DNA of 64,000 bases from contig JACMJZ010000013.1 of assembly GCA_014380365.1 (NCBI GenBank), positions 124,001-188,000 on the forward strand, given 5' to 3'. Source of the DNA: Pyrinomonadaceae bacterium (GTDB lineage Bacteria; Acidobacteriota; Blastocatellia; Pyrinomonadales; Pyrinomonadaceae). Shown here piece after piece: positions 3,292-10,179 of the stretch. Numbering within the stretch: the stretch's first letter is position 1; each line of letters opens with the position of its first letter. A program made the position numbers and the translations under genes. The notes under the pieces were generated by a model. The model was not told the DNA's origin. It ran no database searches and worked only from the letters and a program-made list of their open reading frames with translations.

Positions 3292-4236
3292 CTATCTCCT
3301 CCGGCGCACCGTGCGCAGCTGTGCAATTCTGCCTTGAACGGCTTCCGTCAGGATTTCTATCTCCTCGGAGTTGTAATTAGCGGCGCGAAATGCGTCTCTG
3401 ATTTGGCCCTTGCTCAAGCGCGACAACCAACCTCCCAACCACCGCGCCTGCGCTACGGTTATGTTCGCGAAGATGCTCCCCATCTTGCCGGCGTAGCGAA
3501 ACTTGACTAGGTTACCCTCGACACCTTCGACGAACTTCGCTTTTTCAAAATCTTCCGGATCGTTGCGGCTACGGGTAATCGTCCAAAGAATAGGCAGCCC
3601 ACCCGTCTTGCCAAAGGTGGCACCAAGATCACTGACGACGTAACGCAGCCTCCTGGTTCCCTTCACCTGGATGATCTCGTTGTTGGAATCTTTAATGTCC
3701 CAGTTTTCCAGGAACAGCATCATTATCTTGAGGCCCTGAAATTCGCGTTTGCCGACGAGTGGATTCTGCTCCCATTTCCATTCATCGAGTCGCTTTTCGC
3801 CTCCCGGTCGAGCTTCCAGCCTCACGTCTTCAAAGGTTCCCTTTCCGGGGATGGTTAGCCGGGGAACGAGATAATTCACTTCGGTTTCATATCCGACTGC
3901 CCACAATAGTCGCACCGCCGCGACCTCTGATTGAGCTTCCTTTCCGATCTTTGCCACCCACTCGCGACCGGCGCCGTCGCGTATACGATATTTTGTTCCT
4001 GAGTACCCTCCCTTATCTTCTTCCAGAAATGTGATTCGCCGGAGGTCCGGTTTCATCGCCGAGCCGCCTGGACCGAAGTGCAAGTTTCGCGATCGAATGT
4101 CGGTCGGGGCTCTCCATAAGACCGGCACACCCGGCGGCAATTTTTTCGTCTTCTGCGCTTCTGCCAGCGAGAATGGGATCAACAGCAATGCTACGGCCAG
4201 TGCGGCCTGCGTAAGATGCGGTCTCTTTTTCAGCAT
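3292..4236 (-). CDS. Secreted protein with protein-kinase-like catalytic motifs, function unknown
   Basis: 314 residues from ATG 4236, chosen over an upstream TTG at 4254 because GGAG lies about 8 nt before it. Residues 1-27 form a signal peptide ending near AEA. The mature part has, in kinase order, WVAKIG (K96, like the VAIK lysine), E104 in a following helix, D180-I-K182-D-S-N185 (like the HRDLKPEN loop) and D203-L-G205 (like DFG). The C-terminal third is alpha-helical with a basic tail. No HRD histidine and no clear glycine loop are seen. This suggests an atypical kinase fold in the periplasm or outside the cell. I do not recognise a named family, and the kinase call is inference from motif order. 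It is convergent with the permease and divergent from the glcD fusion. Confidence 0.6.
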   Translation of the reverse strand: MLKKRPHLTQAALAVALLLIPFSLAEAQKTKKLPPGVPVLWRAPTDIRSRNLHFGPGGSAMKPDLRRITFLEEDKGGYSGTKYRIRDGAGREWVAKIGKEAQSEVAAVRLLWAVGYETEVNYLVPRLTIPGKGTFEDVRLEARPGGEKRLDEWKWEQNPLVGKREFQGLKIMMLFLENWDIKDSNNEIIQVKGTRRLRYVVSDLGATFGKTGGLPILWTITRSRNDPEDFEKAKFVEGVEGNLVKFRYAGKMGSIFANITVAQARWLGGWLSRLSKGQIRDAFRAANYNSEEIEILTEAVQGRIAQLRTVRRRR

Positions 4237-4435
4237 TTCCAGGACTCCGTTCAAGATTAGTGTAGATATGCAACGTTTGGACTGGGGGGATCCGAGCGGG
4301 TAAGCATTTCTTCGGCGGGGGTTGATTGACAGCGAATCTTACAGCTAACCCGGTGACGCTCGCAAACGGGCGCCGTGGTCCATCTTCGTGTCTCGAGGTT
4401 GCAGGATAAGGCTTTACGGAAAGACAGCGAGCGTG

Positions 4436-7366
4436 ATGTATCATTGCTTTTCCAAATCAGACCAGAGAAAGCCGGAGCACCTGGATACAGTCGTCGAAAA
4501 TCTGCGAACAATAGTAGGGCGCGACAACGTCTTATCTGAGCCCGACGAGCTACTCGTCTACGAGTGCGACGGGCTGCCGCAGCACAAGTATCGCCCCAGC
4601 GCTGTCGTCTTCCCCTCATCCACTGAACAAACTTCTGAAGTCATGCGCGTGTTGGCCCAGGCAGGTGTGCCCTTTACGCCGCGCGGGGCCGGCACCGGGC
4701 TATCTGGTGGAGCGCTAGCGCTGAATCAGGGCGTGGTGATCGAGATGGCGCGCATGCGCAAGATTTTGAAAGTGGACGAGGTTAACCGGATAGCGGTCGT
4801 TCAACCCGGCGTCGTCAATGCACACGTTTCGCGCGCGGTAGCTTCGCTCGGATTGCATTACGTTCCCGATCCTTCGAGTCAACCTACCTGCACAATCGGC
4901 GGCAACATCGCTGAGAACGCCGGGGGAATTCACTGCTTGAAATATGGCACTACTACAGACCATGTGATGGGACTGCGGGTAGTTCTGGCAGGTGGCGAGG
5001 TTGTGGATCTTGGCGGCGCGGGCGCTGAACAACCGGGATACGATCTGCTTGGCGCCTTCATTGGCTCCGAAGGAACGTTTGGTATTGCAACCGAAGCGAC
5101 CTTGCGACTCGTCTCTATCCCGCCCGCGGTGCGCACGATGCTGGCGGAGTTTGCGGAAGTCAACGCGGCCAGTCATGCGGTGTCCGCAATCATCGCCTCG
5201 GGAGTTATGCCGGCAGCCTTGGAAATGATGGATCGCGAAATCATTCGCGCGGTCGAGGCCAGTGTGTTTGCTGCAGGGTTACCTCTTGACGTCGGCGCCG
5301 CGCTGCTCATCGAACTTGATGGCATTGAAGCGGGGCTCGATGATGAAGCGGAACGAGTTAAGAGCGTCTGCCTCAAGTATGGCGCGCGGAGTTGTCGTTC
5401 GGCCCGAGATGAAAACGAGCGGAAGAAACTTTGGGCTGCCCGCAAAGGCGCCTTCGGAGCAATCGGACGCATCTCGCCGGACTCGATGATTCAGGACGCG
5501 GTGGTGCCGCGCTCGCGGCTACCTGAGGTGCTGAATGACGCCTACAGCATCGCCGCGAAGTATCAACTGCGGATTGCCAATGTGTTCCATGCGGGTGACG
5601 GCAACCTTCATCCGTTGATCTGTTTCGACTCACGCTCGGCCGTTGAAGTTCATAACGTGAAGGAGGCGGGACGCGAGCTGATGGAAACTTGCGTGCGCGC
5701 TGGGGGCAGTATTACGGGAGAGCACGGCGTCGGCTTCGACAAGCGCGAGTTGTTGTCGTTGATATTTTCCGAAGCCGACATGGATGTCATGCTGGGCGTG
5801 CGCCACGCGTTTGATCCGACGGGCCTGTGCAATCCCGGCAAGATCATCCCCATGCTGCGCGGTTGCGGCGAAGCCCGCGCTGTCCAGTCCAACGTCCAAA
5901 GTCCAAAGTCCAATGTCTTATCAGAACCCCGACCCGTCGGGGTAGCGACCGGGTCACCAGCGCCGTCCCGAGTCCAAAGTCCAAAGTCCAAGGTCCTCTC
6001 AAAATACTTTGATCCTGAATCCGCGAAGGTGCAGCTAGCTTCGATTGTGGGCGCAGAAAACATCTCCGCGTCGCCGAGTCTCCGCCTCTCTCCGTCTCCG
6101 CTCACCGTCACCCCAGGCTCGATCGATGAAGTCTGCGAAGTGATGAAACTCGCCTCGCGCGAAGGTTGGGGAGTTGTCCCGGCGGGTGCAATGACCTGGC
6201 TGGATGCTGGTCAGCCTTTGGAACGTGCGAACATCATCGTCAGTACTCAACGATTGAATCGCATCATCGAACACGAGCCAGCCGATCTCGTGGCGATCGC
6301 GGAAGCGGGCGTCACGCTCAAGGACTTCAACGCAGTGCTGTCTCAAAAAGGACAGTGGCTGCCGATTGATCCGCCGGATGCTATTGATAGAGGCCACGCA
6401 ACCATCGGCGGCGTGGTCGCAACCGGGCTCGCGGGCGCTCAACAGTTCGGTTACGGCCCGCCCAGGAAGCACGTCATCGGAATGAAAGTGGTAATGGCGG
6501 ACGGCAGGCTTATCAAAGTAGGCGGGCGCGTGGTGAAAAATGTTGCCGGCTACGATCTGTGCAAACTATTCACCGGCAGCTATGGCACCCTCGGAATTAT
6601 TGTCGAACTGAATTTCAAGCTTCGCCCACTTCCTTTTGAAACGAGAACCATCATGGCGGGAGGCGCGCGTGAAGACCTTCTGGCGGGCGCGCGGCAAGTA
6701 ATCGACGACCGGCTCTTCCCCGTTGCCGTCGAGCTTGTTTCGCCACGCCTTGCCATGGAATCTCAATGGTCAGACGGAACGGATCATTTGCTTTTGATCC
6801 GGTTTGCAGGTTCTTTGAGCGCGGTCGCGCAACAAGCCAGCAGCGCCAGGGAGTTGCTGGGTGAGATTCAAAGTCGACAATCGCACCGCGTTGAACCAGA
6901 CGACGCGAACATATGGCAGTCGCTGGCAGCTCTGCCGCTTCGATGCCGCGACGATCTAGTTTGGAGAATTGGATTGCGACCGGGAGACTTAAGTTTGTTT
7001 CTGGCGGAAATGGATCAGAGAAACGATCCAGAACTAAGGTGGCACGCTGGCGTCGGTGACGGCCGCACTCGTGTTGTCGAACGCTCGCGGCAAAACGATA
7101 ATGAGCCTGCAGTACTTCTAAAGGAGACTGTCGCGCGCATCGAAGCGTTGCGAGCCAGCGCCAGGAACCTCGGGGGTGCGCTGATTATTGAGCAGGTGCC
7201 GCAGGAGTTAAAACACTTAGTGACCGCCTGGGGAAACCTGGGCCCAGCTATCGGCCTGATGCAGCGAGTGAAAAACGAACTCGATCCGGATGGCATCCTT
7301 TCGCCCGGGCGCTTTGACTTTGAAACTATGTCTCGCTCTCATTCACACACGGCTTCAGCCGGGTGA
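4436..7366 (+). CDS. glcDE: Glycolate oxidase GlcD-GlcE fusion (two FAD-linked oxidase modules)
   Basis: 976 residues from ATG 4436; this start leaves 43 residues before YECDGL, as in E. coli GlcD, while ATG 4388 would add 16 unmatched residues. Residues about 1-480 are GlcD: PRGAGTGLSGGAL and DPSSQPTCTIGGN in the FAD-binding PCMH domain, then the FAD-oxidase C domain with HAGDGNLHP and GEHGVGFDK. Residues about 560-976 are GlcE: IGGVVATGLAG, GGRVVKNVAGYDLCKLF, ending near LSPGRFDF. GlcD and GlcE are separate subunits in E. coli; together with GlcF they oxidise glycolate to glyoxylate. The linker (about residues 487-523) is built from intergenic-type repeats, and the last 12 residues come from another repeat. 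GlcF follows at 10187 after an interruption of 2.8 kb. Confidence 0.9.
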   Translation: MYHCFSKSDQRKPEHLDTVVENLRTIVGRDNVLSEPDELLVYECDGLPQHKYRPSAVVFPSSTEQTSEVMRVLAQAGVPFTPRGAGTGLSGGALALNQGVVIEMARMRKILKVDEVNRIAVVQPGVVNAHVSRAVASLGLHYVPDPSSQPTCTIGGNIAENAGGIHCLKYGTTTDHVMGLRVVLAGGEVVDLGGAGAEQPGYDLLGAFIGSEGTFGIATEATLRLVSIPPAVRTMLAEFAEVNAASHAVSAIIASGVMPAALEMMDREIIRAVEASVFAAGLPLDVGAALLIELDGIEAGLDDEAERVKSVCLKYGARSCRSARDENERKKLWAARKGAFGAIGRISPDSMIQDAVVPRSRLPEVLNDAYSIAAKYQLRIANVFHAGDGNLHPLICFDSRSAVEVHNVKEAGRELMETCVRAGGSITGEHGVGFDKRELLSLIFSEADMDVMLGVRHAFDPTGLCNPGKIIPMLRGCGEARAVQSNVQSPKSNVLSEPRPVGVATGSPAPSRVQSPKSKVLSKYFDPESAKVQLASIVGAENISASPSLRLSPSPLTVTPGSIDEVCEVMKLASREGWGVVPAGAMTWLDAGQPLERANIIVSTQRLNRIIEHEPADLVAIAEAGVTLKDFNAVLSQKGQWLPIDPPDAIDRGHATIGGVVATGLAGAQQFGYGPPRKHVIGMKVVMADGRLIKVGGRVVKNVAGYDLCKLFTGSYGTLGIIVELNFKLRPLPFETRTIMAGGAREDLLAGARQVIDDRLFPVAVELVSPRLAMESQWSDGTDHLLLIRFAGSLSAVAQQASSARELLGEIQSRQSHRVEPDDANIWQSLAALPLRCRDDLVWRIGLRPGDLSLFLAEMDQRNDPELRWHAGVGDGRTRVVERSRQNDNEPAVLLKETVARIEALRASARNLGGALIIEQVPQELKHLVTAWGNLGPAIGLMQRVKNELDPDGILSPGRFDFETMSRSHSHTASAG
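5894..5990. repeat. Repeat cluster inside the GlcD-GlcE linker
   Basis: Two identical 19-mers GTCCAAAGTCCAAAGTCCA at 5894-5912 and 5972-5990 flank the palindrome ACCCCGACCCGTCGGGGT (5926-5943). The same palindrome with one base changed is inside GlcF at 10747-10764. These look like intergenic repeats, yet they stay in frame within the coding region. Confidence 0.8.
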
Positions 7367-9737: not shown

Positions 9738-9934
9738 ATGAAATTCAGTGAATTGGTAAGGCTGTTAGAGAAGAACGGATTCAAACTCGTGCGTGAGAAG
9801 GGTTCTATCCGCTATTATTCGAAGCCGGGCCATGACAGGTTAATAGGGTGGACTATCATGGCTCTAAAGAAGTTCCGACCGGTACATGTCGTGCCACCCT
9901 GAGAGCCGCTGGCATCGGAGATAAGCGCTCATGA
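9738..9934 (+). pseudogene. hicA: HicA-type mRNA interferase toxin, frameshifted and lacking its catalytic His
   Basis: ATG 9738 with TTAGGA about 10 nt upstream opens MKFSELVRLLEKNGFKLVRE, the usual start of HicA. The conserved GSHRYY is GSIRYY here, so the catalytic histidine is replaced by Ile. After KPGHDRLI the frame breaks near 9843: the remaining HicA residues (VDYHGSKEVPTGTC... ending GDKRS) are read in the next frame and stop at 9932-9934, overlapping the ATG of hicB by 4 nt. One missing base explains the break. An intact protein would have about 65 residues. The toxin therefore looks doubly disabled. Confidence 0.8.
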
Positions 9935-10179
9935 TTGAACTAAAATACTCTCTTGTTATCGAGGCCACCGAGGATCCGAATTTCTTCGGCTTCTACTCTT
10001 CAGAGCTGGAGGGTTTCACCGGCGTGGGACATTCCATTGAGGATTGTCTGTACAAAGCCCGATGGGGAATGGAAGAACATGTGGCGCTTCTCAAGGAACA
10101 GAATCTTCCTATCCCCGATCGAAATCCAAACCCAACGGTCGTAGTTCAAAACACCGAGCAATTCGCACCGGCCGCCTAG
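9931..10179 (+). CDS. hicB: HicB-family antitoxin
   Basis: 82 residues. The N-terminal fold matches HicB (partial RNase H-like): YSLVIEATEDPNFFGFYSSE, then LEGFTGVGHSIEDCLYKA and a helix ending LLKEQNLPIPD. It overlaps the 3' end of the hicA remnant by ATGA, the usual toxin-first HicAB order. HicB normally binds HicA and represses its own operon. There is no added C-terminal DNA-binding domain. With the toxin broken, this is an orphan antitoxin that could still neutralise a related HicA elsewhere. Confidence 0.85.
   Translation: MIELKYSLVIEATEDPNFFGFYSSELEGFTGVGHSIEDCLYKARWGMEEHVALLKEQNLPIPDRNPNPTVVVQNTEQFAPAA

Follow-up and report, generated by a model that had tools for sequence, protein, structure and literature searches.

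An unannotated family of putative exported HipA-type kinases in the Acidobacteriota and its association with polyphosphate synthase genes

Introduction

Whereas animals have well-known exported protein kinases, such enzymes have hardly been described in bacteria, CotH being the exception. Pel loci of streptococci, clostridia, and bifidobacteria contain a gene cluster for a CotH kinase, polyphosphate polymerase, and DUF4956 protein (PMC7112168); when the CotH-like and MgtC-like genes are mutated, Pel levels change and aggregation is reduced (PMC12345266). The FAM20 kinases are an animal family with disulfides. ATP is scarce outside the cytoplasm. A published phylogeny of HipA kinases was restricted to genes beside a putative antitoxin (PMC8262856) and for that reason would have missed the family described here, of which we found no description in the literature searched.

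Here we analyze a gene in a 64,000-nucleotide stretch (the window) of the genome of a Pyrinomonadaceae bacterium, a soil organism of the phylum Acidobacteriota (contig JACMJZ010000013.1, positions 124,001 to 188,000). A sequence-only reading had proposed that its product carries a signal peptide followed by K96, E104, D180-x-K182-x-x-N185, and D203-L-G205, in the order of a protein kinase active site. This claim held, with every residue number correct. The genomic context of the family, which was invisible to that reading, proved the more informative part.

Sequence Features and Export

The minus-strand open reading frame starts with an ATG at 4236 and ends with a stop codon at 3292. A scan for promoters and terminators around the gene gave signal at background level. 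The features referred to below are as follows.

3292..4236, minus strand: HipA-like protein of 314 aa, very probably exported, with a predicted protein-kinase-like fold; unannotated family (open reading frame, translation, AlphaFold2 model, fold matches)
4245..4248, minus strand: Shine-Dalgarno-like GGAG, 8 nt ahead of the ATG (direct reading)
4156..4236, minus strand: signal peptide, residues 1-27, predicted cleavage between AEA and Q (direct reading and family conservation)
3949..3951, minus strand: K96, beta-3 lysine equivalent (60/60; matches the lysine of distant exported relatives in the alignment)
3925..3927, minus strand: E104, alpha-C glutamate equivalent (60/60, and 53/54 in the other set; on model helix 101-113)
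3679..3699, minus strand: catalytic loop D180-I-K182-D-S-N185-N186 (conservation; aligned on the HipA N-x-D-x-H-x-K-N loop)
3622..3630, minus strand: D203-L-G205, metal-binding DFG-type motif (60/60 for D203 and G205; distant exported relatives have DFG)

The N-terminus has a basic start, a hydrophobic stretch at residues 11-24, and AEA followed by Q at 25-28, and the sequence MLKKRPHLTQAALAVALLLIPFSLAEA ahead of that Q has the appearance of a typical Sec signal peptide. The hydrophobic stretch is kept in nearly all of 60 aligned family sequences, as judged by a hydropathy script. Export from the cytoplasm is thus very likely, although it is inferred from sequence alone.

Conservation of the Active Site

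Translation locates K96, E104, D180, K182, N185, D203, L204, and G205 in the window protein. The order of these motifs is by itself fairly rare and no more, as a loose regular expression describing it matched 18 of 20,000 shuffled versions of the protein, as well as three of 576 unrelated open reading frames. Conservation is therefore the decisive evidence on which the kinase reading was judged. Among the 60 aligned family sequences, K96, E100, E104, D180, D203, and G205 are invariant, N186 (59/60) and N185 (56/60, the other four having Q) nearly so, and K182 is kept in 50. In a second, more diverse alignment of 54 sequences, which overlaps with the first, E104 is kept in 53. The kinase-like order of the active site is thus backed by conservation across the family.

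D180 and N186 (a +6 spacing) had been considered as the catalytic pair; this assignment was dropped once the distant branch was aligned, when N185 (+5) met the canonical Asn. Placement of the active-site residues rests on alignment and the secondary structure of the model, not on coordinates. Six loci (L028, L044, L045, L046, L047, and L048) carry an insertion of approximately six residues between the catalytic-loop Asp and Asn, for example DSKDQRDAGRGSNT.

Predicted Fold

An AlphaFold2 model of the window protein, built from the family alignment, reached a pLDDT of 92.8 and a pTM of 0.88. Its N-lobe comprises strands at 69-74, 82-86, and 92-97, the last containing K96, and a helix at 101-113 containing E104; in the C-lobe, a helix at 164-175 is followed by D180 and a strand at 196-201 by D203. 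Compared with solved structures using Foldseek and VIA-align, the model matched CtkA of Helicobacter pylori best (Z 14.6, with an rmsd of 3.9 across 218 residues), FAM20C coming second among distinct folds (Z 12.1 across 225 residues), followed by PI4KII-alpha (Z 11.8), actin-fragmin kinase (Z 11.2), HipT/HipA (Z about 11; HipT 11.0), and CotH (Z 9.8). All listed PDB matches are kinase-like folds, and nearly the whole mature chain is covered. Matches in a viral structure library were to kinase folds or phage multi-domain proteins and were of no further use.

These computations show, with near certainty, that the window protein is predicted to adopt a bilobal protein-kinase-like (PKL) fold with a full active site. 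A model without a bilobal kinase-like fold would have refuted the sequence-only reading, and this outcome did not arise. That reading had named both HipA and Fam20 folds for comparison; the HipA type is the closest (CtkA and HipT by structure, the HipA_2 clan by profile) and FAM20 is not. Its suggestion of an exported bacterial kinase-like protein is supported by fold and active site, with kinase activity itself inferred. Catalytic activity is likely, but ATP binding and phosphotransfer are undemonstrated and we have no activity data.

Distribution and Relatives of the Family

No Pfam or NCBIfam model matches the window protein, its relatives gave nothing above background against Pfam, and PADLOC and PHROGs searches with the window protein were without a match. 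A sequence search of the PDB with the family profile found no kinase, also when the distant branch was included. Family matches were present in 32 of 59 related genomes, with one to six matches each, and the genome of the window has three copies. A scan of contigs from the genomes of 84,980 species, made with alignment A2 because alignment A1 was too diverse, returned 79 loci, a count resting on the best 80 of 119 matches; all are filed as Acidobacteriota. In the contigs scanned, this unnamed family thus spans the phylum. Relatives were absent from the plasmid collection searched, so spread beyond the Acidobacteriota is not settled.

Searching the whole phylum with the family profile also retrieved longer exported relatives (360-820 aa as mechanical open reading frames), whose motifs place the lysine in [YF]-x-[IV]-K-F-D-P and the glutamate in A-E-V, followed by D-[SM]-[RK]-x-x-N-T and D-[FV]-G-S. 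In profile comparisons, the window family matched these relatives at 99.4%, and the relatives in turn matched HipA_2 (PF20613) at 91.8% with a score of 55.7; unrelated control families reached no more than 18.3 with that profile. The profile alignments place D180, N185, and D203 on the catalytic Asp, the Asn, and the metal Asp of HipA. Direct comparison of the window family with HipA_2 or HipA_C is weak, and at the curated Pfam cut-off the window protein has no HipA match, while the distant branch scores 19 bits against PF20613 (cut-off 27). Kinship with HipA is therefore met at the profile level, but only transitively, via the long exported relatives.

In nearly all acidobacterial genomes examined, a gene for an Omp85-type barrel lies directly upstream of the long branch.

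L138, L146, L155, L172, L178, L187, L189, L190: Omp85-type barrel and longer exported HipA-like protein, conserved pair

Directly downstream of the long branch, four genomes have a gene of the TLC ATP/ADP-transporter family, which suggests nucleotide delivery in that branch. No TLC ATP/ADP transporter gene was found in the window genome.

Two alternatives bear on these relationships. The hydrophobic stretch at the N-terminus might not be a signal peptide, in which case the window protein could be a HipA-type toxin of the cytoplasm; the HipA-type fold speaks for this. We consider it very unlikely: family members almost without exception keep the signal peptide, the window copy has neither a HipB-like partner beside it nor a PADLOC match, and outer-membrane barrels accompany the long branch. 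Alternatively, it could be a pseudokinase, that is, a nucleotide-binding or scaffold protein without catalysis. In favor of this, the protein is exported to where ATP is scarce, and loss of active-site residues does occur in the superfamily: in three members of the long exported branch (L141, L147, and L150) the beta-3 lysine is replaced by Q or S and the alpha-C glutamate by V, while both catalytic Asp are kept. These three are likely pseudokinases, as inferred from their sequences. For the window family this explanation is improbable, since its catalytic positions are conserved almost throughout the sets of 54 and 60 aligned sequences; joint loss of Lys and Glu was not seen in it. An exported, active kinase remains the preferred reading.

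Gene Neighborhood

Neighbors, identified by Pfam, were counted as pairs within 3.5 kb of 86 family genes in the scanned contigs. In 27 cases PPK1 is encoded upstream in the same orientation (median gap 44 bp over all pairs of PPK1 and family gene), and in 23 cases the membrane protein DUF4956 is encoded downstream, again in the same orientation (median gap 41 bp). An exported dual-specificity (DSP) phosphatase with the motif HCxxGxxRT is near 25 family genes; other neighbors are an ABC exporter (25), a PLD-like protein (16), and a metallophosphoesterase (13). Many family members thus form an operon-like row of PPK1, kinase, and DUF4956, near an exported dual-specificity phosphatase. By a rough estimate, the chance that the single ppk1 of a 5-Mb genome lies within 3.5 kb of a given gene is ~0.2%. 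The counts are not independent, as the loci share descent. No recognized partner was nearby for 27 of the 86 (about a third), and contig ends explain some of these.

Members from other classes of the phylum also adjoin DUF4956, some with overlapping ends, and have phosphatase, PLD, or metallophosphoesterase genes alongside. Cultivated carriers include Aridibacter famidurans (L076), with the kinase next to DUF4956 or PPK1, and a Terriglobus (L117) with the PLD/ABC version. A distant exported relative is encoded ahead of PPK1-DUF4956 in one further genome; this PPK1-linked protein was modeled with medium confidence (pLDDT 70.9), CtkA again being the best match (Z 12.9), from an alignment made up mostly of family members. 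We conclude that the family is likely linked to polyphosphate metabolism. A small exported protein without a Pfam match accompanies the metallophosphoesterase and kinase family at three loci (L067:4659-5273, L116:6974-7588, and L167:10481-11125).

The Window Copy

The window copy itself is isolated, flanked by genes for an APC permease and a glcD-type oxidase, and has no phosphate-related neighbor. In a phylogenetic tree, it and a relative (L051) form a pair with a support of 96 nested inside the clade linked to ppk1 and DUF4956, some of the deeper forks that tie it to this clade having only moderate support (83-91). The only ppk1 of the window genome is followed directly by its only DUF4956 gene, with a PPP-type phosphatase upstream and no kinase between, whereas relatives with matching flanking genes do hold a kinase between ppk1 and DUF4956. 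From its position in the tree and this kinase-free arrangement, the kinase of the lineage appears to have left the module. The window copy is thus likely a relocated family member, subject to the moderate branch support in places, and that it still acts in a polyphosphate-linked process is an inference from the family. A paralog on contig C9 of the same genome adjoins an exported metallophosphoesterase.

Other features of the window were noted in passing. At 4388-7366, GlcD and GlcE are seemingly fused in one open reading frame of 992 aa with a low-complexity, repeat-bearing linker (by eye). A palindromic interspersed repeat, AGAACCCCGAC[CT]CGTCGGGGTAGCG, occurs at 5920 and 10741, where it sits in frame in two protein genes (the linker of the glcD-glcE fusion and a glcF-like gene); the genome contains 13 copies of it and none of the reversed control. 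A small HicB-antitoxin-like open reading frame lies at 9931-10179, with no evident HicA partner among the listed open reading frames (by eye).

Proposed Function

Taken together, we propose that the window protein is likely a Sec-exported HipA-type phosphotransferase belonging to an extracytoplasmic phosphate module from which the window copy has departed; catalysis, ATP as donor, and the type of substrate are inferred. K96 and E104 would form a salt bridge, D180 would act as catalytic base with K182 and N185, and D203 would bind Mg. The kinase would have its site of action in the periplasm or on the cell surface, where it would phosphorylate an extracytoplasmic target. The type of substrate is a guess: Ser/Thr residues of a protein that is secreted or resides in the envelope are the most likely, and a glycan or lipid is possible. 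In the ancestral module, PPK1 would synthesize polyphosphate in the cytoplasm and DUF4956 would be the membrane component; the exported kinase would be joined by an exported phosphatase of DSP type (or calcineurin-like) as its likely eraser.

It is possible that the window kinase phosphorylates a glycan, lipid, or small molecule and not a protein, as do FAM20B, POMK, and PI4K. PI4KII-alpha and FAM20C are close behind CtkA among the fold matches, and PLD-like and ABC exporter genes are among the family neighbors. Against this, the best fold match and the profile kinship are with HipA-type Ser/Thr protein kinases, and the most frequent neighbor clusters include no sugar-modifying genes. A protein target remains our preferred reading.

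For the phosphate supply of the window family, leaked ATP, a transporter, and polyphosphate are each possible. That polyphosphate itself replaces ATP as the donor, the product of PPK1 being exported and used outside by the kinase, is doubtful. PPK1 and DUF4956 adjoin about a third of the family loci and one distant relative, and CotH and VTC form an equivalent triad with DUF4956. However, kinases of this fold are, to our knowledge, not known to use anything but nucleotides, PPK1 is cytoplasmic, a polyphosphate exporter is undemonstrated, and the ATP/ADP-transporter-family gene beside the other exported branch argues for a nucleotide. Our proposal retains ATP as the inferred donor. A bolder version, in which PPK1, DUF4956, a HipA-type kinase, and an exported phosphatase carry out extracytoplasmic phosphorylation across the phylum, supplied by polyphosphate or by nucleotide regenerated from it, seems to us unlikely on present evidence.

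What is new is an unannotated family with a full predicted active site that extends across a major soil phylum and repeatedly lies beside genes for polyphosphate synthesis and an exported phosphatase. This context points to a system, not yet described, that phosphorylates targets beyond the cell membrane.

Comparison with Known Kinases

FAM20 (FAM20C, PF06702) is secreted, as the window protein is predicted to be, and has a kinase-like fold. The fold match supports a likeness at clan level only, the Z score of 12.1 over 225 residues being below that of CtkA and similar to that of PI4K. Unlike FAM20, the window family has no Pfam match to PF06702 and the window protein, by its translation, is free of cysteine.

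CtkA and the HipA/HipT/HipA_2 group (PF07804, PF20613) are closer. Their fold matches most of the mature chain of the window protein (CtkA, Z 14.6), K, E, D..N, and D-x-G agree in order and position, and the longer exported relatives provide a profile link to HipA_2. The window protein differs from the HipA group in having a signal peptide and no Pfam match, in a loop of the form N-x-D-x-K-x-x-N and not N-x-D-x-H-x-K-N, and in the absence of a HipB-type antitoxin beside the window copy, whose neighbors are the permease and oxidase described above.

CotH (PF08757) has a kinase-like fold (Z 9.8 to the window model) and is secreted in some hosts. No sequence link between it and the window family was found, with an hhalign score of 14.4 at background and no Pfam match. 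The likeness lies in the gene neighbors, a polyphosphate synthase and DUF4956, which the window family has, with PPK1, and the window copy itself has not. The difference is that the synthase is PPK1 and not VTC, and that an exported phosphatase joins the cluster. CotH, VTC, and DUF4956 occur together at five loci in four Acidobacteriota genomes. By analogy, the window family likely appears in the place of CotH and PPK1 in that of VTC, and the module would be the functional counterpart of the cluster of CotH kinase, VTC polyphosphate polymerase, and DUF4956 in other bacteria. This suggests that the CotH-VTC-DUF4956 cluster is one version of a more general arrangement in which other kinase and synthase families are found around DUF4956. 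With a different kinase family and synthase around the same membrane protein, both the joint role of CotH, VTC, and DUF4956 and the fueling of extracytoplasmic phosphorylation become directly testable.
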